Shown here in pieces: positions 18,912 through 62,390 of a DNA stretch of 64,000 nt (within the stretch, counting starts at the first letter, position 1; each line of letters begins with the position of its first letter). Under the pieces are notes generated by a model. That model did no database searches. It was given only the letters and a program-made list of their open reading frames with translations, and was not told the origin of the DNA. Both the position numbers and the translations under genes were made by a program. This stretch comes from Saururus chinensis. Taxonomy: Eukaryota; Streptophyta; Magnoliopsida; Piperales; Saururaceae. The stretch lies in contig CP141141.1 in the NCBI GenBank assembly GCA_035235625.1, positions 6,252,968 to 6,316,967 of the forward strand, given 5' to 3'.

Positions 18912-18916
18912 TTAAT

Positions 18917-21900
18917 TGTAATACCCGAGATTTTTCATCACATTTTCGTAAAATTCATGGAATTTTTTTTTTGCAATATAACAGCTATAAATAGGAGGAA
19001 AATGATGAAATCAAAACATGTGAAAGCATTTTATAATTTAAAACACTAAACATCAATTTTCCATCCAAATTTATCCTTATTTGATCAAACATCATACGAC
19101 TAAAGCAAATATCCTTAATCAGGGCTACTCGAAAACAAATGTTCGACTAAATTACCATGATCATGGATTTTTAAATACAAATAACTCTCAGGCATCCCTG
19201 AGTACAAGTCCCATAAACAGTCCACTATCTAATCCAAATTAAAAGTCCAAGATACATACACTTTAAATCTTATCTCACCCAATACATCAGATCGTAGCAT
19301 AAAAATATACTCACATTGAGTCAAGGTTATACTTGAATCAAAGGGGAAACAATCCTTCACAGAAATGAGCATCCATCTCCAGGAGCTCTCCAACACATAC
19401 CTGCAAAAGCCTCCCGAACAACGGGGCTAAAAAAATAGGGTAATGAGTATTTTCATAGTCAGTAGGAAAATACCCAGTAGGGGAATCCTAAACTGTGAAC
19501 TCAATAAGTTAAAAAATACATGTGTTCATGCAACTCAAACATGAAGCATACAACATATAATAATTATATACATAAACATATAATAATGCATAACAAACCA
19601 TGAAACCAAACTTATACAAACACCCTTAATCAGGGTCTTACAAACTTACTCGTACAATCGTATGCTAACTCAATACCTTACACATACTTGTACGACCTTA
19701 CTCGTACAATCTTATACTTATAGTCCTCTCAGAATCATATACTTACAGTCATGCTCAGAAACTTACACTTACATTCTTACTCAAAATCATCATCTTACAG
19801 TCATGCTCATACTCATACTCATACAACTTACACGTACTTAGTATGACCTTACTCGTACAATCATACACTTACTTTCTTACTCAAACATACACTTACAATC
19901 ATACTCATACTATTGATCACTAAAGCTCACTACAACTAATAAGCTCCAGCGTTGAAAAAGAAAAGAATGTCACTGGGGCATCATCACCTTAACCTCTGGG
20001 GAGTGACTATTCCGAAGGCAAGGCACACCTATGCTCATGGGGCATAGGATCAAACAAGTAAGAGTAGATCAATGATACTACTTACTTGAGCGCACAAACA
20101 TACACCCATGCATAAGCGGTCATATAATTGCCCACACATAAGGGGTCTTATAGTGCCATACAATTACCCACCATTATGGGTCTTATAGTGCCAGCGCCAC
20201 TCTTGGGTAGAAATCATATAGTGCCTCTTGGGCGGAATCATAGAATGCCACTCTTGGGCAGAAATCATATAACGTTCTCAATAGAGCATTAAACGTCTGG
20301 GCTTAAAACAACACACAGACCAAATTGAAAACATGTATACAATTGCTTTCAACAGAGCATCAAACGTCTGGTGCTCTATATAACACACAGACAACATCCC
20401 GCAGGATAAACACCATGGCAAGACATGAGAAATGCTTAGCCAACTCATTATCGGCTAGCTCAAATACGGAACTTAATCCATTGAACCCTCAGGTCTCAAA
20501 CTCACAACACTATCATTAGCTTTCTTATAATTCAAGTTTGAATTAAGTAAATTATGTGGTACAATTATGCCACGCAAACTCACAGTGCTTGACTGATCAA
20601 ACCGAGGCTGAGCCCTATCTGAACCCTAGTTCGTCAAGGCAGCAGACTTCACTTAACCCATCCATATCATGACCAACTCACCTTACGTCAAATCCTTATA
20701 TAATCATACAGTCTCCGCCATCCACCTTATGGCCAAAACATCTTACACCTACATCATCAAACTGAGTTCCTCACAGTAGATCCCTATTATCACCCTCTTA
20801 CTTAATACCTCACTTATTATGCTTACTTTTCACTTCAAAATCTGTACGTTATGCTTTTACAATTATGCATGCTCTTACTGTCTAATAAACCTCCATAAGG
20901 CTCCAAGCCTAAGTCCTCTTACTTACTGAGCCCCTGATGTATGCTCCAAACTAGAGCAAACTAATCTGCTCCACTCCTCGCCTGTCAAACTTACATCCGC
21001 TATCTTTAGTCATACGCTTACACATCCAAATCTACATCCAACTTTGTACCAAACCCTTTGTCATCTCTTATCGTTCGTCACCCAAACATCTGCCCACACA
21101 TAGTCCAGATACGTAATTAACTCACAATCGCTAGCCATCACTAGCACATACATATTTTGCATACATAAAACATGCTTACAACTCACATACATATATGTAT
21201 CTCAACGTGGCATAATTCATTATCTTACATCATGCAAATAGACCATGATTTAATATCCAAAACATGGAATCATATAATCCTAGCATGCTGCTACTCATTC
21301 AAAGCATGCTACCATGAAATTATGAGTTCAAAGCTTCCCTACCTTGTAATCATGAAGGTTGTGGTGAGCATACTATGGTGGCGGCATCGGTGGTGGAGTT
21401 GGCAGTCAAAACCATTGTTAAGTTGAGAGAGTTGTTGTCTCGAGGTTTTAGGAAACACCGGAAGCACTCATGGCCAAATGGGGTGTCAAAAGTCAATGCG
21501 GCAAAATCCACGATCCACGGCGGCACACTATGGGCGGCTGGGAGAAAGGTCTTGCCAACGAGTGGCAGGTGTGACCGAAGGTCTAGGTGTACACACTAAA
21601 ATTTGACCAGCGATTGAAAAATACTCAACTAGTCACAAGACATCAAAATTGGCCATGGACAGCACCCAACGACATTGATTCCACGTTTACAAGGGCCGAC
21701 ATAAAGGCGGAGGGTGTGGGGTGACATTCAAGGACAAAGGAGAGGTGGAGGAGCTCTAATGGACAAATCCTGATGATGGCAGAGCCATCAGACGGTCAGG
21801 CAGCGCGAAAGTGGCACCTTAACCCTAACTCGTATTCACAACTACATGCACACGCGGCCAAAGGGAGGGGGAGAGGGCTAGACAGAGGTAGTCCAAGGCT

Positions 21901-24091: not shown

Positions 24092-25924
24092 ATTTATGTA
24101 AGGTCCCTGATTTTTCTACGATTTTATGTAATTTTTCTGTTATTTTTTGGGTCATTTTCAACAGGACAATGTGACACTTTGGCATATTTGTATTTGAACA
24201 TTTACTCTGTATTTATATCATAGAGTCGGGTGTAGTACTTAGTCGCAGGCTGTGGGCCTCGCTGCACGCTTACGGCGCGAATTTTGGAGGTATAACAAGT
24301 AACTAGGAGGTTAACGCGTGTTGGGGACGTAAATGTAAAAATAAAAATGAGTGAATAGTAAAATCAGCTTAAAAAGCCGATCCAGTACTTACAGAAGAAA
24401 AACTCGACATCCAGAGAGAAGTGAAAACCCGAGCCTATTTCCTGTCACTCTGTTCTCCCTCCTCCTTCATCTGATTCCATTGATTCTTATCAAGATCCTC
24501 TTTGCCTCACCGCCACGAGTCTGTAGGTACCGGCTATGACCACCACCATGGCCTCTTCGCTTCTCCACGAGGTACCAAACTTTTCTTTGGTTTTTCTCTC
24601 CAAATCCTATTTTTGAGCCATGGGGATTTTGATGTCATTTGCGGCCGCCCTCAACTAGACTTATGTTTGGTTGGCCGCTAGGAACCATAGGCGCTAGCTA
24701 GAGCTGCTGCCATGCTTTCTTCGCTCCGCTGTGAGCTACCGGTACTTTGGTCAGGTTTTGTTCCTATATTTCATTTCACTGTCCGTGGTGTTTTTTAGAT
24801 GCGGTGTGTTTTCAGTCACCAGATGGACTCCGTCCAGCCTACCTCGACCTAGTATTGGTAGGAGGTTGCCATTTCTGACCCCGCTTCACCCCTATTGTCT
24901 TGCTCTGCCTGATTAGATGCTTTGGGTGCATCTTGGGTCGTTGCCATTGGTGATCTGTGGGCCATTTGGCCATTGTGGGCTCTGCCCTGGCTCTGTGATA
25001 GTGAAGGTCAACCCCACTTGGCCCGATTATACCTCTGCTTAGAATGGGCCGCTTGCCTTTGCCATATACCGTGCGAGATGCATAGCTGCCCGCACCACGT
25101 GTATTGGTTGTGGGTGGCGATCGGCGATATTGCCGCTTCGATCAGCCACCACTTCCTGGCCTTAGCTCAGTTGCCCTTTTGTGGGCCTTGGGCCGCTATT
25201 GTCCAACCCATCTCCCCCTAGGGTTGTCCTTTTTGGCCACGTGTGCATGTGGCCACACATGTGCTTTTGGGTTTAGGTGCCATATTTGTGCTGCCTGACC
25301 ATCGGTTGGCTTTGCCACCAAGTAGAGTTGACCACTAGAGCCTCCACCACCTCTCCTCTGTCCTCGAGCATACCCCATGCTGTCCGTTTGTATGTGGGCC
25401 CTTGTTGACATGAAATAGTCATCGTTGGGTGCTATTCATGGCTGCTTTCGACGTCTTGCAGCTGACCAAGTACGTCTTAGCCACCGACTGACCTTCAGTG
25501 AGTACACCCTCGACTTATGGTCACACCGCCACTTATGCTGGCACAACATTTCTCCCAGCCGCCCTAGTGTGCCGTCGTTGATTGCGGATTTTACCGCATT
25601 GATTTCTGACACCCCGTTTGGCCGCGATTGTTTTCGGCACTTCCTAAAATCCTCGGGACAACAGCTCTCTCAGCTAGACAACGGTTTTGGGCACCAACGC
25701 TGCCACCGTCGTGTTCTCGCCATCAAACGTCATGATTATGAGGTAGGTGAGCTTTAAACTGTAATTTCATGATAGCATGCTTTGAATGAGTAACAACATG
25801 CTAGGATTGTGTGATTCAATGCTTTGGATGCTAAATCATGATCCGTTTGCATGATGTAAGAGGATGAATTATGTCATGTTGAAATGCATATGACATGCAT
25901 GTTAGCTGTAAGTATGTTTGAAGT

Positions 25925-26465: not shown

Positions 26466-27849
26466 GTAAGCTATGTATGTATGAAAGTATGTATATATTA
26501 TACGTATATGTAATAGACATATGTATGATGGTTATTTGCCTATGCTATGGATATGCGTATGTGTATGTGGGCACAGGCATGAGCTATGGACGATAAGAAG
26601 TGGCAAGGTGTTTGGTGAGGATTTGTATGTGTCTGTGGATGTGTAAGCATGTGACAAAAGACAATAGATGTAAGTTTGACAGGCAAGGAGTGGAGCAGAT
26701 TGGTTTGGTTCAGTTTGGAGCATACGCCAGGGGTTCAGTAAGTAAGTGGACTTAGGCTTGAAGACTTATGGAGGTTTATTAGACAGTAAGAGTGTGCATA
26801 ATTGTCCAAGCATAACGTACAGCTTATGAAGTGAAAAGTAAGCATAATAAGTGAGGTATAAGTAAGAGGGTGATAACTGGGTTTGGCTCTAAGGAGCTTA
26901 GTTTAAGGACTTCCGAGTAAGATGTTTTGGCCATAAGGTAGATGGCGGAGTATGTAAGATTGTAAGGAATTGATGTACGATGAGTTGATCATGATATGGA
27001 CGGGTTAAGTGAAGTCTACTGCCCTAACGAACTGGGGTTTCAGAACGGGCTCAACTTTGATTTGATCAGTGGAGCACGGTATGTTTGAGTGCTTGTGTGG
27101 CATAATTGTATCGCATAACTTACTTAATTCAAACTTGAATTATAAGCACAACTAATGATAGCGTTGTGAGTTTGAGACCTGAAGGTTCGACAAATTAAGT
27201 TCCATGTTTGAGTTAGCCAATAATGAGTCGGCTAAGCATTTCTCATGTCTTGCCATGGTGTTTATCCTGCGGGATGTTGTCTGTGTGCTATATAGAGCAC
27301 CAGACGTCTGATGCTCTGTTGAGAGCGACATATGTTTTCGATTTAGTCTATGTGCTGTATAAGCCCAGACGTTGATGCTCTGTTGAGAGCGACGTATGTT
27401 TCAGATTTGGTCTGTGTGTTGTTAAGCCCAGATGTTTGATGCCCTATTGAGAGCGTTGTATGATTTTTGCCCAAGAGTGGCACTGTATGGTTCTGCCCAA
27501 TAGTAGCACTGTATGTTTCTGCCCAAGTGGCATTGTATGACTTTTGCGCAAGAGTGGCACTGGTACTATAAGACCCATTATGGTGGGCAATTCTATGGCA
27601 CTATAAGACCTATTATGGTGGGCAACTGTATGACCCCTTATGTGTAGGTGTTTATATTTGCGTACTCAGGTAAGTAGTATCATGGACCTACTCTTACTTG
27701 TTTGATCCTGTGCCCCATGAGCATTGGTGTGCCTTACCTTCGGAAAAGTCCATGGCGTCTAGTCACTCCCCGGAGGTTAAGGTGATGCCCTTGTGGCATT
27801 CTTTTCCTTTTTGACGTTGGAGCTTATTAGTTATAATGAGCTTCAGTGG

Positions 27850-28210
27850 TTGATAGTATGTGTACAATTATGAGTATGACCACGACTGTAAGAGTATGAG
27901 TATGTGTACGACTATATGAGTATGAGTAAGACCATAAGAGTATGAGTACGACTGTAAGAGTATGAGTATAAGCACGACTGTAAGAGTGCGAGTATGAGCA
28001 CGACTGTATAAGTATGTGATTTTGAGTAAGCATATGATTGTACGAGTAAGGTCGTACGAGTAAGAATGTACGAGTAAGGTCGTACGAGTAAGAATACATG
28101 AGTAAGGTTGTACAAGTAAGATTATACGAGTAAGGTCGTACGAGTAAGGTTGTACAAGTATGTGTATGTTGTATGAGTAAGTGTACAACAGTACGAGTAA
28201 GTTTGTAAGA
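27850..28210 (+). repeat. Short tandem array GTACGAGTAAG-type in solo LTR
   Basis: Units of about 10-15 bp built on GTACGAGTAAG and GTATGAGTA recur through this stretch. The complement (CTTACTCGTAC) is present at about 19640-19915 in the inverted LTR. The reading frames it generates on the minus strand (Tyr/Ser/Thr/Leu repeats) are by-products of the repeat. Confidence 0.75.
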
Positions 28211-28924
28211 CCCTGAATAAAGGTGTTTGTGTAAGTTTGATTCGATGGTTTATTTGACATATTTGTATGCGTATGAGCATGATTATGATATGCCTGTTTG
28301 CTTCATGGTTGAGTTGCATGAACGCATCTATGTATGGATTTACAGAGTTCACTGTTTAGAACTTCCCTACCGGGTATTTTCCTACTAAGTATAAAAATGC
28401 TCATTACCCTACTTTTTAGCCCCGTTGTACGGGAGGTTTTTGCAGGTTTGTGTGGAGAGCTCCTGGAGATGGATGCTCATTTTCGAGGTGGATTGATTCC
28501 CTTTGACTCAGGTATATCCTTGACTCACTGCGAGTTTTCTTTGTGCCATGATTTGTTGTATTCGGTGAGATGAGAAAATAAGTGTTTATATATTCTGGAC
28601 TTTCGTTTGGATTAGACTGTGGACTGTTATGGGACTTGCACTCAAGGATGTCTGGGAGAGATTTGTATTTAAAGTCTATTATCATAGCAATTTATTCGTA
28701 CGGTTTTTTTTTAGTAGTGCCTGAGGATGTTTGGTTTAGCCGTACGATGTTTGATCGAATGAGTAAAAATTTGTATGGAAAACCAAAGTGTTATGTTTTA
28801 AATTATAAACATGTTTTCACAGGTTTCGTATTAGTCATTTTTCCCAATTTATAGTAGTTATATTGTAAAAATTTTCTGTAAATTTTGAGGAAAATGTATG
28901 AAAAATCTCGGGCCTTACAATTTA

Positions 28925-37295: not shown

Positions 37296-39034
37296 TGATG
37301 TAAAATTTTACTATGTACTCGCAAGCGCACAAATTAAAAGTAGAAAAATGTCTAAATGAGGTTGATTTCACGAGGACTCATTCAATTTAACTACATCTAA
37401 AATATTACCTAACTAATTCAAACAAAGAAATAGATTTAATTGACTAAAATGAGTAAAGACGTAGTAAAAAAGAATCTAAAAGAGCACGAAGTCATCGAAT
37501 CCACCCTAAACAAATTAATTCTATCTCTAATTGAATTTATAAGTATCTAATTGATGTATCTCTCATGTTCCTCTCGGACACAATCATAAAAAATTGCACA
37601 TACTCCTCTCTCACATACGCAACTAAGATAGTTAAAACAAGTTAAAAAACTCATCTCTCTCGAGCATAGATTTCAAATAAGAAAATCAACTTCATTCAAA
37701 AAGCACCTCGGAGTGCACCCGCTCCACTCAAACACGAGTATTCCTAAGTTCGATTTCACCTATTAAACAACTTTACCCTCTCTCAAGTGCATAGAATCCA
37801 AAATAATGAAATTTACATTAAACATATGTAACAAAATCTTACATCAACTAAAAACTTTAAAAAAAAAGAAATAGAACCAAATCTGTTTAGGGTTTCATCT
37901 AAGCATTGATAAATAGTTTAGAAAGCCATGAATGTTGGAGAAGAGAACTGATTTGGAGAAGTCACTGATTGCTACAATAATTATGAATAGTGATCATGAA
38001 CAATGTCTTCTTCCTCCCCAAGCCATGCTACAACACCTACATATAGTGAATTTCCTTCTTTCCTCTGGTTTGTTCCTTCCGAATTGGACTCGACTTCTAA
38101 ACTCTCTATTTCTTTTCTCTATTTTTTGGAGGATGGAATTGAATGATTTCCTCTCTAATTCTTGATCCCTCTTCCTCCCTTGGTTTTCCTAACTTTCTGC
38201 ACCATGTTCTTATAACTTCTGGGCGACACTTTTCTTACCTCCTTTAAGCTTCAATTCCGTCCTTGATTAGGTTCTTTCTATGTACTGACTCATTCCTTTT
38301 ATTTCTTCTTTCTTGCTGCTCAAGTCTTTCCTTCTTTAATTCTTCTTTCATTTTCTTTGAATTCTGGTTCTTGTTATTCTATGTTTTTACCAATTTTGCT
38401 CTGTTATGAACTAATCTTCCATTCTGAACTTTTGCTTTAATTTTTTGTGCAAACTAGCTATTGTGATTGGTTTATTCACCATGTGAATCTGCCTTTTATT
38501 TCTTCTAGTGCGTTAGGACTTGAATTGGTAGGAAACTTCTTTTTAATTTTGCACTTTCCCTATTAAAAACTTGTTGGTCAAACTCTGTTTCTGCTTCACA
38601 TTAAGCTGCTGAAATTTATCATGGTTTGCTTGAATTGGATTTGCACTGCTGGTTTGGTCTATTTCTTGACTCTTGCTGCAAATAGTTGGATGTTGGTTGA
38701 TCATTTTTATTACATTGGCTGATCTTTTCTTTTCTTTCCTCTTATTTTTCTGATCATCCCGTTCTCTACTTACTTTGTTTAAGACTCCACCCAGTTGTCC
38801 CTTGTTTCACCAATGTCGTCTGCCAACTTCATTATACAGGGTCTTCCAAATTTAGCAACTTTGATAGAATTTGCATAAAAATTCATCTCTATCGTACCAA
38901 AATAGCTTCTTCACAAATTAAGCTCAACAAAACCCATAGAACACAATTAAACCATATTAAATTGTCACTACTATAAAATCAATCATAAAATGCATAAAAA
39001 TAGGGTATATAAATGTTATATTAAGTGCATATCA
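37296..39034. mobile_element. Probable solo LTR inserted in the copia fossil
   Basis: The insert opens TGATGTAAAATTTTACTATG and ends TTAAGTGCATATCA, the latter a common end of plant LTRs, and separates two parts of one gag-like region. Flanking pentamers CTCTT and CTGTC agree at only three positions. About 1.74 kb without recognisable coding regions. A fossil; family unknown. Confidence 0.5.
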
Positions 39035-39689
39035 CTGTCCCAATGCATGTTGCTTTGAATGTGCCGAATGTAACATCTGCCAATGCTTTGTTTGATGCTT
39101 TAAAACAACTATATGAAATGTCGGCTACCACGAATAAATTTTATTTGGTTAAAAAGTTGATTGAATTGAAGATGGGTGAGGATGAGTCTTTTCCATCTCA
39201 CCTCAACATCTTCAATAATCTCATGAAACAATTGGAGGCAGTAGATATCTCATTTTATGAAGATGTCAAGTATATTGCTCTATTTAATTCCTTACCCAAA
39301 AGTTTGGAGTCATTCGTGATTGCATACAATTGGTCATCAGGCAAGGAAAAGTTGAGTATTAATGAGATTATAGATCTAGTTTTGATGGAGGAAATTCGAA
39401 GGAAGAGCAATGAGCCTACATCATCCAGTTCAGGGCTGAGTACCGAAGATAGAGGTCGGCAAAAATAGAGTGGAACACCTAGTAATAGTCATGGTAAATG
39501 CAGACATGGGAAATTCATATCTCACATTGGAAGGAATATGGTGCATGCTGGAATTGTGGACAAATGGGGCATGTGAAGACTATGTCTTTGGGAAGCAGAA
39601 AGTATCTTTTACCAAAGTAGTCTAGGAGAGAAAATCAGAATGGCTAGTGCTAGTGCATACTGATGTATGGGGACCCTCTTAGGTATCTT

Positions 39690-40975: not shown

Positions 40976-42429
40976 CTCATTTTCTTGGTGATGGTCTTTA
41001 ATTGATGATGTGCCAAGTAATGGGTTTACTTCTTAAAGAACAAATCTGATGTACTTGATATCTTTGTGAAATGGAAGACCCATGTAGAAAATAAAACTGC
41101 ATAGAAATTTAAATGTTTGACATCTAATAATGAGGGAGAGTATTGTGGCAAGGAGTTCAAATCCTTTTGTGATAAGAATAGGATTAAGAGACTCCTGACT
41201 ACATCAAGAAAGCTCGAACAAAATGGTATGACATAGCAGATAATCAGGACTATCTTGAAGTGTGCTAGGAGCATGTGGGTTTATTTGGGTTCGAGTGCAA
41301 TTTTGGGCAGATATAGTCAACAAAGAAGTGTACCTGATCAATAGATCCCCATCTTACTCCTTGGAATGTGAAAATCAAGAAAATGCATAAACAAGTAAGG
41401 AGGTGAAATATGATTACTTAACGAGTGTTTTGATGTCCAACATATGTGCATGTTGAACTAGAAAATAAGGGGAAGGTTAATATCAATTCTTTCAAGTGTT
41501 ACCTCATAGGCTATGAAAGAATATGCATGAACAAGTAAGGAGGTGAAATATGTTTATTTAACTAGTGTTTTGATGTCTAACATATATGCATGTTGAACTA
41601 GAAAATAAGGGGAAGCTTAATGTCAATTCTTCCAAGTGTTACCTTATAGGCTATGAGGGTGATAGCTATGGTTATAGGCTCTAAGATCCTGCATAGAAAA
41701 AGGTGGTGCAAAACATTATTGTTGTTTTTAATAAGATAAGAGTTATATCAAGACAAGCAAGTCCTACAAAAGGAGAAAGGAGATTGCATAAGAATTTGTA
41801 GAACTTAAAGAAATTGATGCAAGTAGTTCAACTTTTTAAGATCACAATGAGGAAACTCAGGTTTTCGATGATGATTCTTCTCAAGATGACACTCATGTTT
41901 TAGATGAAGAGAATTAGGCATTTACCTCCTCTGCTTCTCAAACAGCGCTTCAGACACCTCTTAGATAGACATCTAACAGATAGCGTAAGCAGAAAACATC
42001 ATGGTCTCCTAGCATTAATTATTTGTTGTTAGTACATAACGGTGAGTCTAAAAGTTATGAAGAGGCAATCCAAGTGAGCACTAATCTTGAGTGAGAGCAT
42101 GTCATAGATGATTAGATGGAGTCATTGAACTCAAATGAAACTTGAAAATTAGTTGAGTTGCCTAAGGGAAAGAATGTTAAACATATGAGTATATGTTTTG
42201 TAATTGACTTGATTTCATTAAACAAAACTATGCCCAAAGGGTGTATTTTTTAAGTCTAAGGAATGTGATAAAGATTAATAATGTAATCAAAATTAAATTC
42301 GGAATTGATAGACTTGAGAAAGAGGAGCTAACTATTTCTGATTTTAAAGGTGAAAGACTTAATAAAGTAATAAGCATCAAAGGTAAATTTTACAGACACT
42401 CGTATGCACTAACATTTATATTTATATTA

Positions 42430-51179: not shown

Positions 51180-52990
51180 TCCCTTGAATTCTTATAGGCC
51201 ATCATCATTCTTGATATCTTGTAAAGCATCATATCAGAGACCCACATCTCTATCTGTCACTGCTACAAATGTGTCTCTATGGACACATCTACGTAGATAA
51301 GTATACAACAAATCATCATAAGCGGACCAAATGAAGAGATTTGGACGCAAGCATGAGCACTGATTCTTGGATTCTCCACTGCACTACATGAAATACAGCT
51401 GTACCCAATGATTACCATGAAGAATAACCAGTACAAAAAAAGGCAAGTAAGTCCTTGAATGCTCCCACCGTATCTCCGTGAGGATTTTATTTCTGGTTAT
51501 TATGATTTCTGTTTGCTTCTCCTAAGCACCATGTTGTAAAAGATCCATGGCCATCATCTCCCTCTTCCAGAATGAAGAGAGAGGCCCAGAAGATATGTAT
51601 TACAGTGACTACTTTTCCCATAATTCCATTCGTCAGCAGAAAAAAAAAAGAATGGTGATTCATGAAAGGTACTCACCTGGATGCTTGTTCAGAACCATTT
51701 TAAGGTTCCTGAAAGGTGTAAGCATGAAACACAGTTGGAATGAAAACTATTTCATATGACCCTGGAGTAGATGAGGACACAAAATGTAAACCAATAAAAT
51801 GGTGTAAAACATACCTAACAAAAAAAAAATGATGGATGTAAAAGATAATAATATATACAGGAGATCAACAAGAGCAATAAGAATGGTTAAATAACACAAA
51901 TCTGGAGTTTTTTTTTTTCTGCTGACACAGAACAGGAGAATGCTATAAGAGAAAGCATAAAAATCTATAGGTCAACAGTAAGAGTGGCAAGATAATATTA
52001 CAAGAAATAAGGAAAAACATAGACCATAGATGAGAACAACAGAAAAAATAGAGGGCAAAAAAATTTCAAAAGGAAAACCAATTAAGGAAGTAAATAATAC
52101 AAAAAAGTAGAAATACAAAGGAAACACAAAAAGGCAATGAGAATAGTAGAATGCAATCAGAGATTATAGTTGAAGTATTTTTTTACCTTAGAGATCAAGC
52201 CTCCTGGTAAAAAGGCAGTGGATGGATTATCACATGGGTTTTACAAAGAGAAGCCAACAGAAATCAGTTGGCAGGATGCCCACCTCCATTTCTGAATTCA
52301 AAACCAGACGAGCTGCATCCGGAGGTGGACAGAATGCCAATAATATCTGTAAGGAACCCTTTGATAAACACACATGAAACATCAAAAAATCAAGTGAAAT
52401 ACTAACTCCTCCCACTCTCCATGCCGAAAACCACATGTTGCAAGCAGAAGCCAAAGAGATGTTTTATAGAAGAAGGCCAACACCAACAGATAGGGATTAG
52501 GGAATAACAAAGGGAAGAGATTAACGAGGGAGCGGGTGTGCTTTCTCTCCTGCATTAAATTACGGTAGGAATCATGATAACCTAGTTAATGATGCAGACC
52601 ATTAATCTTCCTTGACTTCCTCTCCTTCGCACAACCCCCCTCGTTTCTGACGCAGACATCCTTTCTCTCACCACTGCCGTCTCTTCTCCATGGAGGAAAA
52701 GGCACAAAAAAGGGCAGATCAGATTCAAGGAAGCTTCACCCACCTTTCCCAATCGGAAACCCAGACGAAAACTCAATTTTGTTGCCGAAAACGAGAGAGA
52801 GAGAGAGACTGGGACTGGGACTGGGACTGGGAGTGGGAGAGCTCGATTATTTCCTTAGCAAAAGTTAATGGAGAATACACCCAAGGTGTAGAAAAGCTGA
52901 AGCAAAACTGTAACGGGGAAAAGGATTGGGAGAAAGTGAGGTGGAGAGGCACGAACATAATTCCTTCGGTTTGTCGCCTGAGTTGTCAAT
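51180..52990 (-). ncRNA. Candidate spliced minus-strand transcription unit, non-coding or decayed gene
   Basis: Read on the minus strand, the region begins with a CT-rich leader (52810-52780) of the kind seen in plant 5' untranslated regions. It also contains a small exon-like block 51677-51708 with a strong acceptor (TTTCAG) and donor (GTGAGT), and a block ending CTCTAAG before GTAAAA near 52191. The right-hand part (51180-51450) has no open frame, as in a 3' untranslated region. Frames are short: 52230-52454 encodes 74 residues (FCPPPDAARLVLNSEMEVG) that I do not recognise. It could be a lncRNA, a decayed host gene or chance. Support is weak. Confidence 0.25.
52799..52837 (+). repeat. Simple repeats (GA)n and (GGGACT)n
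   Basis: A GAGAGAGA tract is followed by four near copies of GGGACT. They generate the DWDWDWEWE string in the plus-strand frame there, which is not credible as a protein. Confidence 0.7.
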
Positions 52991-53389
52991 AACGACGGCT
53001 TTCACAACAGAGTCTTAAAGTCTAAGTAAATTCCCACCAATTTCCACCTGGCTGTGCTTTGCGGCATTTAGAGTTTGCAAGCTGGCAGCTCAAGTAAATC
53101 CATGTCTCCTTACAAAGGCGTTGGAAAACCGCGCCATTTATGTGAGGAAAAGAGTCATAAAACCACGTTCTCACTGACCTACCTGGGCACTGGAGCTACT
53201 AAATGGTCACTTCTTGGTTCCCCCAGAATCCACAGTGACCTGTCAACCTTCCTTAATTCACAGGCTACAACTTATCCTTCAAAAGAGAACCTACCACCAA
53301 TAAACTCGGTAGAAGACAAAAGGGTTAGCACAATAAATAAAAATAATATTTTTTTTAGTTTTATATTAATAATAATATTTTTAAAATAG

Positions 53390-53928
53390 TAAAACTTAAT
53401 TAAATAAAAAAATACTTATAATACGTTATTTTTAGTACTTAATTATTTAAGTTTAAAAAAATAAAACTATTAATATGAAATAAGTTTTTTTTTAAAATAT
53501 AATTATTAATGTAAAACTAAAGAAGTATTGAATTAATTTACTCAATTAAATTTTGGTTGGATATTACATGTGGTCTTAAATTGAACTTTATGGAAAATTT
53601 ACATATTTGATCTAACTAAAACTCATTTGAAAATTTTTATTGAGTAAATTTATTAGATATATATTACTATCTTTACAAAAAAAAAATTACAAAATTAAAA
53701 ATTTTAAAATTTATTTCTTCTGATATCTTCCTATTTGTTTCTCTTCCTCAAACACAACTTAGATGCTTGTTTCATAAATCTACAAAGAGGAGTATTAATC
53801 CATCATCTTTGTCTAGGTATAGATCCATGTTAAGGAATATTTTTAAATTGATTGTGGCACTCTCGTCGCCCATATATGCCTTGTGCGAGGGGCGGCCCAA
53901 GTCGGTGCATCAAACTTTTAATGTCAGT
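53390..53928. other. AT-rich stretch; right part may be decayed ITS1
   Basis: From 53390 to 53760 the sequence is very AT-rich without features. From about 53767 to 53928 it lies directly upstream of the 5.8S match and so should be ITS1 by position. I could not confirm this, because ITS1 is variable and no 18S 3' end (GGTGAACCTGCGGAAGGATC) is visible upstream. Confidence 0.35.
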
Positions 53929-54070
53929 ATGATTTTTGTTAACAAATATCTAGGCTCTTGCATCGATAAAGGACATAATGAAATGTGATATTTTGTGTGA
54001 ATTGAATAATCTCACAAATCTTTGAGTCTTTAAACACAAGTTATGCTCAACATCTGCTTGGGGGTCAAAC
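53929..54070 (+). pseudogene. Decayed 5.8S rRNA gene copy
   Basis: The segment is colinear with plant 5.8S rRNA: TATCTAGGCTCTTGCATCGA stands for TATCTCGGCTCTCGCATCGA, followed by AAATGTGATA, GTGTGAATTG, GAGTCTTTAAACACAAGTTA and CATCTGCTTGGG. Most differences are C-to-T or G-to-A, as in methylated sequence decaying by deamination. About 20 nucleotides corresponding to GAAGCCATTAGGC and neighbours are missing between TTATGCTC and AACATCTG. It cannot give a functional 5.8S rRNA. It is followed without a break by ITS2 and 25S relics, so a unit of nuclear rDNA was dispersed here. Confidence 0.88.
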
Positions 54071-54322
54071 ATCACATTGCTCCCCCTCCCCAACCCAAAC
54101 AAGAGAAATTGGACTCGCAAACAAATATTGGTCGTCCATAGACCTTAAGCTTGCAATTGGTTGAAAGCTTTGACCCTAATTGGTTGCATGCTGCTCAACA
54201 AAAGGTAGTTGTCAATCCCACTTTTGAGGCCACAATTGTTAGGATGTTGTGTTGTTTATTGCCCACATCAATTGGTGAGGACCCAAATCAATTGACCTTC
54301 CACGATGGAGGCAGGGATCATT
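54071..54322 (+). pseudogene. Decayed ITS2 of a dispersed rDNA unit
   Basis: About 250 bp, the length of a plant ITS2, lies between the 5.8S and 25S relics. It starts with CACATTGCTCCCCCTCCCC, corresponding to the usual CGCATCGTTGCCCCCCC opening, and ends just before CCAACCCCAAGTT. The middle is not conserved enough in plants to identify independently, so the call depends on position. Confidence 0.75.
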
Positions 54323-54537
54323 CCAACCCCAAGTTAAGTGGGATCACCTATTGAGTTTAAGCATATAATTAAGCAGAAAAGAAACTTAGAAGGATTCTCC
54401 TAATAAATGTGTGTAAATCGGGAACAACTCAGCTTGAAAATCGTGCAACTTTGTTGTTTGAATTGTAGTATGTAGAAGCGTCCTTAAAGACGAACCGGGC
54501 CCAAGTCACATAGAACAGGGCACCAGAGAGGGTGTTA
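54323..54537 (+). pseudogene. Decayed 25S rRNA gene, 5' end (first part)
   Basis: The first ~215 nucleotides of plant 25S rRNA are recognisable: TGAGTTTAAGCATAT, then AAGAAACTTAGAAGGATTC, CAGCTTGAAAATCG, GAATTGTAGTATG, AGAAGCGTCCTTA, ACCGGGCCCAAGTC and CCAGAGAGGGTG. Changes are mainly C-to-T and G-to-A. The match stops near 54535, where an AT-rich repeat begins, and resumes at about 59669. Confidence 0.88.
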
Positions 54538-54567
54538 TGGATGACAATATTGATTACTATGGATACG

Positions 54568-57500
54568 CAGTGGCGGATCCAGGATTTTTAATCATGGTGG
54601 TCAAAAGCTAATTAAAATTTAATTTTTTTTTACAGCAACTATACATAGTTTACCCTTTGATGAAAGATGTATTTAAGAATTAATACCACATTTTCCTTAA
54701 AAAAACTGGTCAACACAAAATATATCAAAATATCATTCACTTAGTGTTCTTTAATTTATGATTTAAATAAAATCTAAAAATAAATTCAAGGAGTGGAACC
54801 AAATTAAATATAGATAATAAATTCATAAATAAAAACAAACACAAGATGAACCTGTAGGTGTTCTATGACAAGAAGATGAAGCTCTTTACTAGCATTAAGT
54901 TCTCTCCTTCCTGTATAAATTAATAAATATAAATTATACCAACTAATAGAAGACACAATAAAATAAAATATAAATAATAAATAAACAACTTGAAAATATA
55001 GTATACCTTTGGAATGACAATTTCCCTCGACGAGTCCTCATATTTTGGAAGTGTTTGATGATCTTTTCATTATCGATTTGGTTGAAAACATCATTCTCAA
55101 TGTATGTTATCAAACAATCATTCATCCACTCATCTCCCATCCGGTTGCGAAGTTTATTTTTCACAATATTCATCATAGAAAAAGCTCTCTCAACAGTAGC
55201 AGTGGCAACTGGAAGGGTTAATGCTAACTTTATGAGCAAATAAACCAAAGGAAATGATAAGTTCTTTCTCTTCTCCACCATTTTCTTAGCTAGATCAGTA
55301 ATCCCATTTAAATTTGAGAACTCATTGTTGTTCCGCATGTGCATAATATAAACATCAAGTTGATCCTCAAGGGTTAAAATATCAATTGGAGAGAATTCAT
55401 GGGGATAAAATTTAGCAAGACAAAGTAATTTCTCCTTATCATAGGCTGAGAAAGAATCCTTTGGATCTAGACATGCCATACAAAGAAGCAACTCAGTATT
55501 TTTTTCAGTGAAATGAGTGTTAAGCTCTTGTAATTGCATATCAATGATAGTATAGAATAAACCAACACGATAGTGATGTAGATTTGTAATTTACTCTCCA
55601 CGTCGTGACCGTCCAAGTGCTATATAGTTATCATCCATGCAAGGAACATCAATATCATGCTTATTACAAAATACAGAAACTTCAGTCATGATAGAATCTC
55701 ATCCATAATCTCTTAGCTCCTGTAAAGATATCTTAGATGTTTCAACCAAATCCATTGCATTCACAATATCTTGTTCTTTTCGTTGTAATGATTTTGATAG
55801 ATCATTTGTGAAGCCCAAAATCTTTTTCATCACATGTAAATTAAAAACAAATTCAAAAGATTGCATGAAACCTAGTAGAGAATTTGCTTTGGCTCTTTGT
55901 TCCCTGTCTATGCTATCTTTCTTAACAATCTCAAGAACTCGAATAATAGCTGAAAACATGAGAATGAAGCTACATAATGTACCATAATGTGAACCCCAAC
56001 GAGTATCACATGACCTCTTCAAACTAGTTTCTTGATTAAGGCCTTGCCCAGTTGATAATTCACCCCTCTCAATTGCTTCAAAAACATCATTAACTTGTTC
56101 ATCTCGAAGCATATCTTTGCGCTTACATGATGCTCCAACTATATTCATTATAGCAGAGAGCAAATCAAAGAAATCACTTATGGGCATAAGATTTTTTGAA
56201 ATAGCAACAAGTGTTAATTGGAGACGATGAGCAAAACAATGAATATAATATGCACACTCATTTTCAATCAAAATAAGTGCTTTCAACCCATTAAATTGAC
56301 CTTGCATATTACTAGCACCATCATAACCTTGTCCACGTAATCTTGTTATACTTAATCCATATTTGGAAAGTAATTCTTCAACCCCCTTTTTAAGAGCCAA
56401 GGCTGTAGTTTCTTTAACATGTACAAAACCTATAATTCGCTCAATCACACAGCCTCTCCTATCCACATAATGTATAACAACAACCATTTGCTCTTTAATA
56501 GATATATCACGAGCTTCATCAACTAAAATAAAAAAAAACATCCCCAAGATCTTTGATGATAGCTAATATAGTCTCCATTGCACATGAGTGTACAATATCC
56601 TTTTGGATACTTGGTGCTGTCAACTTGTCATTTTGAGGGGCATTTTTTAAGATAACATGACCAAAATCTTCATTGTTCTCACCAAGAAATTTTAAAAGTT
56701 CAAGGAAATTCCCTTGATTAGAAGAATCTTCTGATTCATCATGACCACGGAAAGCTAATCCTTGATTTAAAAGAAATCGGGTACACTTAACTGATGCCTC
56801 CAAACGAGCTTTATATTCAATGTCTCGTTGTTCTTCATGCCTATAAAAAGCTGTTTGAATGTGTTGCTCTTGATTTAATAAATTACAAGCCATCTTATAA
56901 GCTTTATTGTGTGAGCTGTCCACTCCTCCTACATAAGCACCGATTTTTTCATACCTCTTCCAATTTCTAAATCCCTTTACTACAAAAGCATCATTACCCC
57001 CCCATTGTTCTCCAAAAAGATAACAATATAAACAAAATATTGCATCTTTATGTATACTATATTCTAACCAACTGGGATATTTATCAAACCATTGAGGAAG
57101 AAATCGTCGTAGCACACCTAAAAAATTAGTTTTGGGGAAAGTGTGACTACGAGGTTGGCAAGGACCCTTTTGCAAATAATACCTTCTTTCCATGTCTTGG
57201 TCATTGGGATGAAATTTTGAAATTGGTGTGTGTAACCCTGGATCTGCTTTGAGTTCATCCAAATTGACCCTTACCGCTTGGCTTTGGCTCTTCGTAAGTT
57301 GAACTTTATCACCAGTAGAGGTTGATGGAGTAGAATCAAATAACTCAGATTTTCTTTTAAGATATTTGTCCATCGCTATCAAAACAAAATAACAAAGGTC
57401 AATTAATTATTTAAGGCATATATATATATAATATATCAAACACTATATAACTATATAGGTGGGGTTCATCATATGTCAAAGAGTGATTAATTATTGTTAT

Positions 57501-58433
57501 TTAATATTAGAAAAGTTTCTCCAAACACATCATACTAAGAAATGTCAAAGTACATAACACCATTGACCTAATTTTCTTAACCCATGTGAAACGTTTTTTA
57601 ATATTTTAATTATGTAAGAACTACCCCACATTCCAAATCAATATAAACAATGATATACTATGAGTCTATGAGGTTGGTCTTCAAATCAATATATACAATG
57701 AGTCAATAACATACTATGAGGTTGGTCATTGGGTATGAAATTCTTAAATTTCAAAACACCTAAAGAGATTTTAGCATGTAAATATAAATAAAAAATAAAC
57801 TTCTTATGGGTTTTAAGAGATAAAAAATAGAAAAAAATACCTTAATAAAGCATGAAATGGAAGATGATGAACTGAATTGCTTGGGGGCTTTATTGCTTAA
57901 GAAGAGAGATTTGTTTATGGGCTTGGCTAGTAGGAAGGCTAAAGAAGAGAGTAAAAGAATATTTTCAGATGTCCGCCATTGTTGATTGTTTCATACTGGT
58001 GGCTTTGATTTGTTTAATTTTTTAGGTTGTTCGCTGGTTATTTTTTTAGGCGGAAAAGATGAGGCTTTTTATGGAATTTTTTGTTCACCGGCTTTAGTTA
58101 TAGATCCCGGATTTGATTTTACCACCTTTCCCTTATTTGACTTTTCTGCTGCCCTTTACACAATTCGGGATTGGGGTAATTTATTCTGCTACTTTTGGTA
58201 TGGAGTGTTTAGAGTGGGCCATAGTCATAAAGGTTTAGCATGGTGGTGCTAGTTTTTGGTATGGTCCGTACGGAGAGTTTAGATTGGGCCCATGGTCATA
58301 AAAATATAGCATAGTGGTCAATACTTGTAGCTGTGGGTCCATCCATTAAATAATCTATAGGGGTTTATAAAAAAAAATCCAAATTTTAGGGTGGTCAATT
58401 GACCACCTAGCTTTCAACGTGGATCCGCCACTG
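54568..58433 (-). mobile_element. hAT DNA transposon with intact ends and 8-bp target duplication
   Basis: The 3,866-bp element has perfect 13-bp terminal inverted repeats (CAGTGGCGGATCC at 54568-54580 and GGATCCGCCACTG at 58421-58433) and an exact 8-bp target duplication TGGATACG (54560-54567 and 58434-58441), the hAT hallmark. The sequence GGTGGTCAA just inside both ends extends the similarity. The homologous repeat at about 62335-62360 lacks the insertion and keeps one copy of the site. The transposase frame on the minus strand is interrupted only three times, so the insertion is young relative to the rDNA and LTR fossils around it. Confidence 0.93.
54943..57382 (-). pseudogene. hAT transposase (TTF-type zinc finger, DUF4371, hAT dimerisation), three lesions
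   Basis: Transposase of the enclosing hAT element, of the type annotated as zinc finger MYM-type protein 1-like. N-terminal part (57382-56519): MDKYLKRKSELF, then the TTF-type finger around PSWLEYSIHKDAIFCLYCYL. Middle (56547-55699): RNase H-like core with LVDEARDIS (first catalytic Asp), GYDGASNMQG (second Asp) and CFAHRLQL. C-terminal part (55539-54943): LPVATATVERAFSMMNIVKN, with the catalytic Glu in VERAFS and the hAT dimerisation domain. A frameshift lies in the A9 run at 56530-56538. A TGA at 55699-55701 stands where Trp is usual, and there is a TAA at 55591-55593. A donor at 55006 (CCAAAG/GTATAC) and an acceptor at 54911 suggest a short last exon; a 5' leader intron (57842 to about 57376) is also plausible. 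It cannot make full-length protein as read. Confidence 0.92.
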
Positions 58434-58920
58434 TGGATACGGGTATGCATCGATGATATGCTTGGTATGCACCGAAATGGTCGTAAACCTTTTGATACAC
58501 AAAAAAAATATATTATAAATAATAATATATTATTATAATACTTCTTTTAGAGCATTATAGAACCATTAAAGGTTATATCAATTGATACAAGTACTCTAAA
58601 ATTAGTTCATTTTATAACTATACACTATTACTCCATTCGTCCTGTACAAACTATTATTCCCTCTATTCCATATTAAGTGCTCTGAAATTAATTTATTTTG
58701 AAACCAAATAAGAAAGTTAATATGAGTCACATAAATATTATGGAGAAACTTATATGTTATATGTTTAAGTAAATGCATAATTTTATAGCATTATATTTAG
58801 AAAAATAATTATGTGAATTGTATAGACCCACCTGTATTGATCATATATAATTTTTTTAAAAATATTTTTAATATAATAAAAACATTATCATCTTTAAAAC
58901 TTCGAAGAGGTTGAGTTTGA

Positions 58921-59420
58921 CACTACAACAAAATGTAGTATTAGTTACGCATTTATTAGCGATGCTTTATTATAAGCGTTGCTGATAGTGCCTCTATTTG
59001 CAATGCTTTATACAATTGTCCCTAATAGTGCCCCTATTTGCGATGCTTTATACAACCGACGCTAATAGTGCCCCTATTTGCAACGCTTTATACAACCGAC
59101 ACTAATAGTGCCCCTATTTGCGACGTTTTATACAACCGTCACTAAAAGATATATATTTGAAATAAAAAAGAAAAAATATATGACTATTAGCGACGTTTTT
59201 TCTCAAGTGTCGCTAATAGCTTTCGTAATAGCGACGCTTATAGGAAAGCGTCGCTAATAATCTTTCTATTAGTGACGCTTACAAAAGCATCACTAATAGT
59301 TATGAATTTAAAATAATAAAAAATAAAAAATTTAAACTATTAACGACGCTTTTACATAAGTGTTGCAAATACCATTTCTAATAGTGTTGTTTGTTGACAT
59401 GCGTCGCTAATAACTTTATT
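58921..59420. mobile_element. CACTA transposon end inserted in the AT-rich repeat
   Basis: It starts CACTACAACAAAATGTAG at 58921 and carries many copies of TTAGCGACGCTT / AAGCGTCGCTAAT and TTTGCGATGCTTTATACAAC to about 59420. The following AT-rich tract (to about 59560) resembles the interior side of the CACTA end at 1-614. The matching far terminus was not seen. The inverted repeat copy near 61660 (TTCAAACCCAACCTCTTC) shows the site without insertion. Confidence 0.65.
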
Positions 59421-59668
59421 AATTAAATTTATTTAAAAAATAAATATTAAAAAATTATAATAAACTTCCTAAATATAATATATTTATTTAATACTTATTA
59501 TTTATATATACAATAAATAAATATTATATTTTTAATAAAAAACTAGCATTAATAATAGTTTAAATAAAAAATATTGGAGTATTGATACATATAGGTTGTA
59601 TTAATATAATAGGGCTGATATGTATCCAAAATTTGTATGTGGGGCATACCACCCCCTATACCATATAG

Positions 59669-59775
59669 GTGTTGAAAGACTGATAGTGAACACGTACCGC
59701 AAGAGAAAGATGAAAAAAGACTTTAAAAAGAGTCCAAGAGTACTTGAACACATTGTGAGGGAAATTGAGGCTTGT
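59669..59775 (+). pseudogene. Decayed 25S rRNA gene, second part
   Basis: 25S sequence resumes here: AAAGACTGATAGTGAACACG stands for GAGACCGATAGCGAACAAG, followed by GTACCGCAAGAGAAAGATGA, GACTTTAAAAAGAG, AGAGTACTTGAA and GAGGGAAATTGAGG. It corresponds to roughly residues 320-420 of plant 25S. About 100 nucleotides between this and the first part (ending 54537) are absent, lost at or after the intervening insertion. The frame MYPKFVCGAYHP... that crosses it is an artefact. Confidence 0.85.
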
Positions 59776-61479
59776 TTAGTAGGTAATTTAGGGTTTATAG
59801 AAAGCATTTTCTCCTCAACTCTGCTTAGGAGGAGGGAGGAAGATAATCTTTCCCTGATGTAATATTTTATACTCAGGGAGAATCCCTTTCCCTTCTATGG
59901 TGTCTCCCAAATAAGCCTGACGTTGAAGCTAATGGAAGGTTAGGAACTGGTTGTACATGGTTTGAAGGAGGAGTTGTAATACCTTGTGTTACAAAAATCA
60001 TTAAGATGCGGATTTGTAGGAAGTGGTGTTGCATTTGATTGGCTTGACGCTTCTATGAGAGTTGGGCTTTGAGCAATGACTGATGTGGGAGCCAAATTTA
60101 TAGATTTGGCGAGATTAGAATATGATGATCATAATGAGGATTAAATTCATCGGGACCTGTCTTGCATTCCCAATTTGTAGGAGATAAATTTGTGTGAGGA
60201 AAATGTATCCTTGGCTATGTTCCACAACCAGGGTCGATGACCAGCAAGGTGTCAACTCATAACTAATGGCAAAATATTTGTTTACAGATATATAAATAAC
60301 TATGTTTAAAATATTAAGAAATATAATAATGTAATTTAGTTACCACTATCCAATAGTTTAAAATTTTATAATTTCTTTTCCTACTAGTTTGAAATCATAA
60401 CTAATTTTGTAAGATCCTCAGGCTAGCGTGGCTTCTCTTTTGAAATCTTGGTATAACTCCACTTGTCACACTTTATACAATGATATATCTTATAACTTAA
60501 AGGTTAGGGTGTTAAAGCAAGCTCGAAAATTCAATTCAACTCAACTCGTATTCGAGTTCAAACTCAAAGTTAGTCAAACGAAACACAAACATATATGTGC
60601 TCAGCTTGGTGCTTGAGAAAAGCTTTACTCATATTATGTATATTATTTTTTTAAATATATACATACATATATTACACACCATATATAGATTTCACGTCTC
60701 CCAAGTTTCAACTTCTTCCATCAAATATATCATTTTTACTTTTTTTTTATGTGCAACTACATCATGTTTCTTGTTAGAAAAAATAAATAATGTCTCATGA
60801 GAACTATAACTATTTTTATAAAACTTTGCTCCCTTTGTCTAGTATTTATAGCCTAAATTAAAAAATTAGAATCAACTAAAACTAATATATTTGGTTTTTT
60901 AACCTTAACACATTAGACCACTTTATATTTATGTTCGTATCAATAATTTTTCTCTAAATACCTCTAGGCTAAGGTAAAGCAACTTGACTTGACCTGAGTT
61001 GTAATCAAACTCAATTTGAGCTCAACTCGAACTCAAAATTAAAGTTTCAAGCTCAAGCTGACCTGAATAGTCTAAAAGCTCGATAGTACTCAACTCGTTA
61101 CACTCATACTTAAAAGTGATAATAAGAATTTGATAGAGAGATAAAAATAATATCCTCAGTAGTGGGAGTTTAATGTAATATTTTAAAATAAAAAATAGTA
61201 TAATAAAAGAATAAGAAGTAAAATGTTAATTAAAAAGACATAAGTTGAAGACATAAGGTATTAAGAACTTATTTACATATGTTAAGAAGCAATTAATAAG
61301 AAGAATTTTGCATAGCACATTTAGTGGAAACTTATTACCAAATGGACATTTCATGTTGGAACAAAAAATGCGAAAGGTAATTTTGGAATAAAGAAAAGTA
61401 GAAGGAAAATTGGTGCCTGAGAAAGTTCTAATCACATGAGTTGTGACCATGGAAAGTCATATCGACTGAGATCAATATG
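59776..61479. other. Anonymous stretch; contains a CTCGA-rich repeat
   Basis: From 59776 to 60300 the sequence is moderately GC-balanced without recognisable protein or rRNA identity. At about 60508-60570 and 60978-61110 phrases such as AACTCAACTCGTATTCGAG and GAGCTCAACTCGAACTC occur, a style common in small plant transposons, but borders were not found. No gene is recognised. Confidence 0.4.
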
Positions 61480-61697
61480 ATACAGGCGGTGGTACACCCC
61501 CTATAGGAAAAGTTGATACATATCAGCAATATTTTATAGATAAAACCAATACATATAGATACTAAATTAATTTATAATTTAATTTATTTTATAAAAAATA
61601 ATTTTTTACTAAATTTTTTTTTAAAATTTTTTCCCTAAAAATAAAAACATAATTCAAACCCAACCTCTTCAAAGGTTTAAAGCTGACAATATATTTG

Positions 61698-61792
<95 letters not shown>

Positions 61793-62390
61793 GAGAACAA
61801 TATAGGTGAGTCCATACAATTTACATATTTTTTAAGTCTACAATTACAAATTTACTTACACATTAGCTTAGGGGCTTCTTCATAATATTCTTGTGACTCA
61901 TATTAAGTATCTTATTTGGTTCTAGAATAAATTAATTTTAGAGCATTTAATATGGGGCAAAAGGAGTAATAGTTTGTATGGGTACTATGGTCTATGGATT
62001 CTACCTTTTGAGTATTGTAATGTTTGTAGTTGTTGCGTTGACATTATAATATTTTAAATTTATAAGACATTGATGATATAATATTTTATTATGTAATTAA
62101 TAACTATTTGTTACTTACAAATTAAGTTTTACTATTATACATATTGTGCTTTAAACTGATTTATATTTTTTATAGTGTTATGACTTATTGATTGTAGCTC
62201 TATATTCAATTATATCTTTTTATTTATTATTATACTCTAAAAGAAGTATTATAATGATATATTATTAGTTACAACTTTTGTTCATATGTATCAAAGGGTT
62301 TGCGCATATTTCAGCACGTACAAAATATATCATCGGTGCATACCCATATCTATGGCCATTGATAGTGTTATCCGTATTGATACGACCTTT
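61480..62390. mobile_element. Second copy of the AT-rich inverted-repeat element, opposite orientation
   Basis: Its reverse complement matches the element at 54536-59668 block by block across about 0.8 kb, without the hAT or CACTA insertions. It includes CGGTGCATACCCATATCTAT (empty hAT site, about 62335) and TTCAAACCCAACCTCTTC (empty CACTA site, about 61656). It carries an expanded TA tract at 61699-61788 not seen in the partner. No coding region. With its partner it makes an inverted pair about 7.8 kb across. Confidence 0.7.
61699..61788. repeat. (TA)n microsatellite, about 45 units
   Basis: An uninterrupted run of TA dinucleotides lies inside the AT-rich repeat copy. The homologous place in the other copy (about 58840-58880) is AT-rich but not a pure TA run. 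Confidence 0.95.

Follow-up and report, generated by a model that had tools for sequence, protein, structure and literature searches.

The window, i.e., the whole 64-kb stretch of DNA that was analysed, contains a colinear fragment of 45S ribosomal DNA (rDNA), all on one strand, which comprises the 3′ part of ITS1, 5.8S, ITS2 and two parts of 25S (Table 1). The 5.8S is matched by Rfam model RF00002 (model 1-154 at 53931-54067) with 63.9 bits versus a cut-off of 42, and the first part of 25S by RF02543 (model 1-236 at 54324-54560, in a short stretch) with 89 bits versus a cut-off of 50. For the second part of 25S the RF02543 score (model 295-455 at 59640-59800) is 50.8 bits, barely above the same cut-off, and 52 bits when 59640-59960 is given to the model. 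The LSU was found in short stretches only, being absent from the Rfam scan of the whole window and from a 9-kb scan up to E 1. Comparison with L002, another rDNA relic in the same genome, gave 328 bits for 53817-54534 and 78.3 bits for 59648-59764; among 100 dinucleotide shuffles of 53800-60000 the highest score was 32.6 bits. Relative to L002, the 5.8S has lost 19 nt. In angiosperm 25S numbering, part 1 ends at about nt 215 and part 2 begins at about nt 332, and about 116 nt of 25S are absent at the site of the AT-rich element that separates them.

Table 1. Features of the rDNA relic and its insertions (positions in the window)
Feature	Position	Strand	Basis and remarks
ITS1, 3′ part	53811..53930	+	Aligns with three further relics from this genome; blastn match from 53817; left boundary ±~10 nt
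5.8S rRNA pseudogene	53931..54067	+	Rfam RF00002; 19-nt internal deletion
ITS2 remnant	54068..54323	+	Alignment with L001, L002, L017 and part of L003
25S pseudogene, part 1	54324..54536	+	RF02543
AT-rich element, copy A, including two inserts	54537..59675	+	65-77% identity (blastn pieces) to inverted copy B; ends ± few to ~10 nt
8-bp target-site duplication TGGATACG of hAT, left copy	54560..54567	.	Unoccupied counterpart in copy B
hAT transposon	54568..58433	-	Perfect 14-nt inverted termini CAGTGGCGGATCCA; transposase domains
8-bp target-site duplication TGGATACG of hAT, right copy	58434..58441	.	
CACTA-type transposon end	58921..59430	+	CACTACAACAAAA exact at 58921; subterminal tandem repeats; right limit approximate, by eye
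25S pseudogene, part 2	~59676..59764	+	RF02543 and blastn
AT-rich element, copy B	~61475..62376	-	Inverted repeats I1, I2, I3, I9, I11 and alignment; left end approximate

The initial annotation had placed 5.8S, ITS2 and two parts of 25S in order outside any array, and the Rfam matches to 5.8S and LSU bear out this order. The relic starts earlier than the 53929 given there, i.e., within ITS1 at about 53811-53817, and of the two upstream features for which a search had been suggested, ITS1 was found and 18S was not. Rfam gave no SSU match in 52600-61600, and none in 53690-53835 up to E 10. A 45-nt match to an inverted piece of 18S at 53783-53825 (E 0.037) was rejected; local alignment of 53690-53816, which overlaps this match only partly, with the 18S portion of L002 gave scores of 11 on the plus strand and 13 on the minus strand, versus an average of 14.5 for 500 shuffles. 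Only one 5.8S is present in the 64 kb (Rfam) and at E 1e-3 L002 matches no other part of the window, which places the relic outside a tandem array. The colinear 5.8S and LSU homology, the ITS spacers, the loss of conserved residues and the lack of an array are those of a 45S rDNA pseudogene: a real, readable, dead fragment without a product and most likely without function. Its boundaries are diffuse, and neither an A-tail nor a target-site duplication was seen by eye at its ends. A MIR394 gene (Rfam) lies about 1.5 kb from the relic.

The 25S is interrupted by the AT-rich element, and within that element a hAT transposon and a CACTA-type end lie side by side. The hAT has short inverted termini, an 8-bp target-site duplication and the transposase domains DUF4371 (PF14291, in two frames) and Dimer_Tnp_hAT (PF05699). 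On inspection by eye, the transposase frame is disrupted by one frameshift and by two in-frame stops. With up to three mismatches allowed, no opposite CACTA terminus was present in 58921-62000; therefore only a CACTA-type end is claimed. Rfam candidates within the repeats of this end (Fusobacteriales-1, mir-249 and MIR530, at 59190-59366) were below their own cut-offs and were rejected. No target-site duplication of the AT-rich element itself was seen by eye at copy A. The inverted copy B of the element has neither the hAT nor the CACTA insert, and the empty sites of both can be read there. The order of the insertions is fixed by these unoccupied sites: the element interrupted the 25S, and the two transposons entered the element. 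Thus, a nest of insertions, as first described, does exist, with the qualification that the hAT and the CACTA-type end lie beside each other and are not nested in each other. The relic had also been proposed as a clock: it orders events but gives no reliable date.

Decay of the relic is dominated by C>T and G>A changes, as had been noticed from the sequence alone. Counted against an ancestor inferred from other relics, themselves decaying, and not against an intact unit of this genome, 175 substitutions were found at 664 sites: 58 C>T and 60 G>A (118 together), 23 reverse transitions and 34 transversions. By context, the C>T and G>A changes affected 40/88 CG, 21/44 CHG and 39/184 CHH sites, so that the rate in CG and CHG is about twice that in CHH (Fisher p 6e-5 for CG and 9e-4 for CHG), an outcome in favour of the initial annotation, which had suggested this comparison by context. 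The spectrum is consistent with deamination of cytosine methylated in the plant manner. The 5.8S is nearly invariant in living genes; here, 31/129 of its sites are changed, together with 36/108 in ITS1, 81/244 in ITS2, 32/191 in the first part of 25S and 15/76 in the second. Possibly, the 25S differs less than ITS1 and ITS2 because its ancestor requires agreement between L002 and L017. An earlier count for the second part of 25S (16/57 G/C sites) was discarded, as the 120 columns used for it extend into a non-aligning tail.

The window relic is the most decayed among the five relics compared. When each of the other four was left out in turn and tested, the excess of C>T and G>A changes over the reverse changes was weak in L002 (51/350 vs 35/317) and L003 (34/159 vs 19/137), and there was none in L001 (46/282 vs 41/245) or L017 (17/237 vs 28/201). 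CG was raised in all four of these relics, whereas CHG was not raised in L003 (2/14 vs 14/85 for CHH) or L017 (0/15 vs 7/136).

The description of the relic as single-copy goes too far genome-wide: there are at least five further independent loci with rDNA relics. One more candidate (L005/L009, C3) was removed from the count: its best family is bacterial LSU, so that it is organelle-like, and its 5.8S score of 35.2 bits is below the cut-off. Among the 39 scored of 9091 candidates there was no intact rDNA unit, the best 5.8S having 113 bits. Of six independent loci, three have scrambled rDNA joints: in L006, 18S nt 24-81 is inverted against the 3′ end of 18S; in L017, a piece like the start of ITS2 is placed before the 3′ end of 5.8S (by eye); and in L022, 25S nt 70-187 is followed by nt 3-65. 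The window relic has neither a scrambled joint nor an insertion junction that can be read. A cluster of relics lies 7 Mb off on the same contig; four C2 copies, at 13.35-13.56 Mb, have flanks in common (96-97% alike).

The scrambled joints, together with the retained spacers, favour DNA-level joining at breaks over clean retroposition. How the window relic entered is extrapolated from the other loci, because its own junctions are unreadable and it has no scrambled joint. ITS1 and ITS2 are also present in pre-rRNA, and retained spacers are thus compatible with reverse transcription. Several routes of dispersal had been listed at the outset; DNA-level joining is favoured here, and the relic is a nuclear 45S rDNA pseudogene that probably arose by end joining. 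A broken, linear or circular fragment of rDNA would have been joined into a chromosomal break, would thereby have escaped concerted evolution, and would then have been methylated as repeat DNA and have lost its cytosines through deamination. As a more tentative extension, which we consider rather doubtful, rDNA fragments may slowly rain into the chromosomes of this plant from small rDNA circles. Opening a circle of 25S nt 1-187 at about nt 65-70 would yield the order of pieces seen in L022, and scrambled joints are present in two more loci. If so, the window relic would be an old product of this route, and the set of relics its record.

Perhaps the relic was not inserted as a fragment but is all that survives of an rDNA array that once stood here, the rest of which was deleted. 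rDNA sites are known to move, and the cluster 7 Mb off agrees with such a history; the single 5.8S, the lack of more matches to L002, a left flank without 18S and the nearby MIR394 gene make it unlikely. Likewise unlikely is that pre-rRNA (the end of ITS1, 5.8S, ITS2 and the start of 25S) was reverse-transcribed and inserted by LINE machinery. Pre-rRNA could yield such a fragment, the joint of L022 is near the mature 5′ end of 25S, and L006 and L008 have 18S break points within about 4 nt of each other, but the diffuse ends of the relic have no visible A-tail or target-site duplication, and the inverted piece of 18S and the permuted order at other loci require extra template switches.

Capture of the rDNA by a transposon, which then carried it here, is improbable. 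It could draw on L007, in which positions 1-1720 match a repeat of the window (24094-25787) at 79%, about 1.7 kb left of the 18S start of L007 (~3394), and on the common flanks of the four C2 copies. However, these copies span no more than 211 kb, and local duplication is enough to account for them; among the pairs of independent relics compared, a subset of all pairs, there was no common edge element beyond the rDNA; and the recognised transposons of the window are inside the rDNA rather than around it. Chance resemblance or misassembly, to which the weak LSU score of the second part of 25S would point, is hardly credible: chance is refuted by the shuffle control, and the order and strand of the parts agree. 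End joining of an rDNA fragment is the explanation preferred here.

Concerted evolution homogenises living rDNA units, so that their earlier variants disappear. Relics that lie outside arrays preserve old variants and then decay freely. Since the methylation context makes the decay legible here, and the unoccupied sites reveal the insertion order, the succession of relic, element and transposons can be established with no need for a calibrated clock. ITS barcoding and short-read rDNA counts may also be confused by dispersed relics.

Decay by a directed mutation process is also found in fungi, in which RIP produces C>T changes. The RIP-mutated rRNA pseudogenes of filamentous ascomycetes (PMC5555474) are likewise decayed rDNA copies, whereas the relic has the CG and CHG context of plant methylation. 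Human 45S rDNA pseudogenes (Robicheau et al. 2017), which according to one citing passage are mostly in proximal regions, are likewise derived from rDNA; the present case differs in being from a plant, in decaying at CHG as well as CG, in having a transposon nest with a readable order, and in lying about 1.5 kb from a gene. In Cycas revoluta there are, in the account given in PMC10462631, almost five thousand 45S rDNA pseudogene copies, about half of all rDNA copies (Wang et al. 2016); these are also plant pseudogenes, whereas here single partial units lie outside arrays. The same source mentions an eroded rDNA array of grasses that was colonised by transposons after horizontal transfer (Mahelka et al. 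2017; PMC10462631). That array was likewise invaded by transposons but is foreign in origin, whereas the relic, a partial unit, can be aligned with others in its own genome. Among the best-ranked 8 to 20 titles from each set of 35 to 279 matching papers there was no plant rDNA relic with a transposon nest, which is no proof of absence. Relics of this general kind are already known, and the value of this one is in its insertion order and its methylation-dependent decay.

The MIR394 precursor in the window points to plant DNA. The window relic is a decayed fragment of 45S rDNA that runs from the 3′ part of ITS1 through 5.8S and ITS2 into two parts of the 25S (54324-54536 and about 59676-59764). 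Its three Rfam matches (5.8S and two of LSU) are collinear, lie on the plus strand and pass the curated cut-offs, the second LSU match just barely; LSU was found with short stretches only, longer scans of the window sequence listing none. In DNA comparison with L002, a relic elsewhere in the genome, 53817-54534 scored 328 bits and 59648-59764 scored 78.3 bits; the best of 100 dinucleotide shuffles reached 32.6 bits. Neither Rfam SSU scans nor local alignment compared with shuffles detected 18S in the relic or its left flank.

Features of the window and places of rDNA relics (L numbers are extracted loci)
Feature	Position	Strand	Basis or remark
ITS1	left start about 53811-53817	+	alignment with other relics
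5.8S	53931-54067	+	Rfam
LSU (eukaryotic), first 236 model positions	54324-54560	+	Rfam, short stretch
LSU, model positions 295-455	59640-59800	+	Rfam, short stretch
AT-rich element, copy A	between 25S parts 1 and 2		resemblance to copy B
AT-rich element, copy B	about 61475-62376	inverted relative to A	blastn pieces, 65-77% identity
hAT transposon	54568-58433		exact 14-nt inverted termini; 8-bp duplication TGGATACG; DUF4371 and Dimer_Tnp_hAT domains
CACTA-type end	start 58921		single terminus
MIR394 precursor (RF00688, 75.7 bits)	52254-52353	-	relic starts about 1.5 kb upstream
Direct repeat, 2.5 kb, 80%	1225-3713 and 6510-8952
Inverted repeat, 2.5 kb, 75%	18914-21196 and 26473-28922
Tandem pair, 140-bp copies, 92% alike	41377-41656
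Copia-type gag fragment	39025-39465	+	PF14223
Relic place 1	C2:6252968-6316967		the window
Relic place 2	C5:40.475 Mb		L001/L006
Relic place 3	C8:32.099 Mb		L003/L008
Relic place 4	C10:0.215 Mb		L002/L007
Relic place 5	C2:13.346-13.557 Mb		four copies: L017, L019-L021
Relic place 6	C8:13.901 Mb		L022

Copy B of the AT-rich element is uninterrupted at the positions where copy A carries the hAT transposon (frame broken, by eye, by one shift and two stops) and the CACTA-type end (no partner terminus up to 62000). Therefore, both entered copy A later, and the sequence of insertion is rDNA, followed by the AT-rich element and last by hAT and CACTA, in either order. Where copy A sits, the 25S lacks about 116 nt; the AT-rich element shows no target-site duplication, so its arrival together with this deletion is inferred.

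Searches of the genome (516 Mb, 11 contigs) revealed at least nine relic copies at at least six independent places. The four copies of the C2 cluster (Rfam LSU 292-313 bits) have in common a 1.1-kb left flank, and L017 and L019 are additionally alike over 2.1 kb on the right, both at about 96-97% identity; because of these flanks the cluster is counted as one relic multiplied locally. L018 contains this left flank too (84%), there with no rDNA beside it. The LSU score of L022 (31.7 bits) is under the Rfam cut-off, and two blastn pieces of it are 82-83% identical to a 25S reference. An organelle-like locus on C3 (L005/L009) was left out of the count. Because no 5.8S exceeded 113 bits among 39 scored of 9091 candidates, living rDNA arrays seem to be absent from these contigs.

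For each site, the base shared by most of L001, L002, L003 and L017, and by at least two of them, served as the ancestral state. Over 664 sites, from ITS1 through 25S part 1, the window relic is 73.6% identical to this ancestor, and C>T (58) and G>A (60) account for 118 of its 175 differences, i.e., 118/367 G/C sites, against 23/297 A/T sites for the reverse transitions, with 34 transversions. The equal numbers of C>T and G>A suggest double-stranded DNA damage rather than strand-biased editing. Changes were more frequent in CG (40/88; Fisher p = 6e-5) and CHG (21/44; p = 9e-4) than in CHH (39/184). An earlier count over 631 sites, in which an angiosperm reference replaced L017, agrees (C>T/G>A 111/353; CG 32/76, CHG 17/35, CHH 46/198). 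Against methylation-type decay, it must be weighed that in left-out tests L002 and L003 had a weak excess over reverse changes and L001 and L017 had none; that CG exceeded CHH in all four, and CHG in just two (L002, 7/30 vs 22/195; L001, 6/22 vs 15/165); that the spacers of the window relic diverge more than its 25S parts; and that the ancestor can be biased, its voters being relics themselves.

Scrambled rDNA was found in three of six loci. In L006 (4912-5064), 18S nt 24-81 are inverted and joined to the final 98 nt of 18S; in L017, a short piece resembling the start of ITS2 precedes the 5.8S 3′ end (by eye); and in L022 (4079-4261), 25S nt 70-187 are followed by nt 3-65, a circular permutation with its joint close to the mature 25S 5′ end, as an opened circle would give. 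The 18S break points of L006 and L008 are about 4 nt apart or less; that of L008 adjoins a long TA repeat. Because spacers are retained and joints are scrambled, we favour the joining of broken DNA as the origin of the relics, which for the window relic would follow by analogy with the other loci.

The window relic belongs with the reported rDNA pseudogenes of human (Robicheau et al. 2017), Cycas (Wang et al. 2016, cited in PMC10462631) and fungi (PMC5555474), to which it adds a combined CG and CHG signal and a nest of insertions with a readable order.
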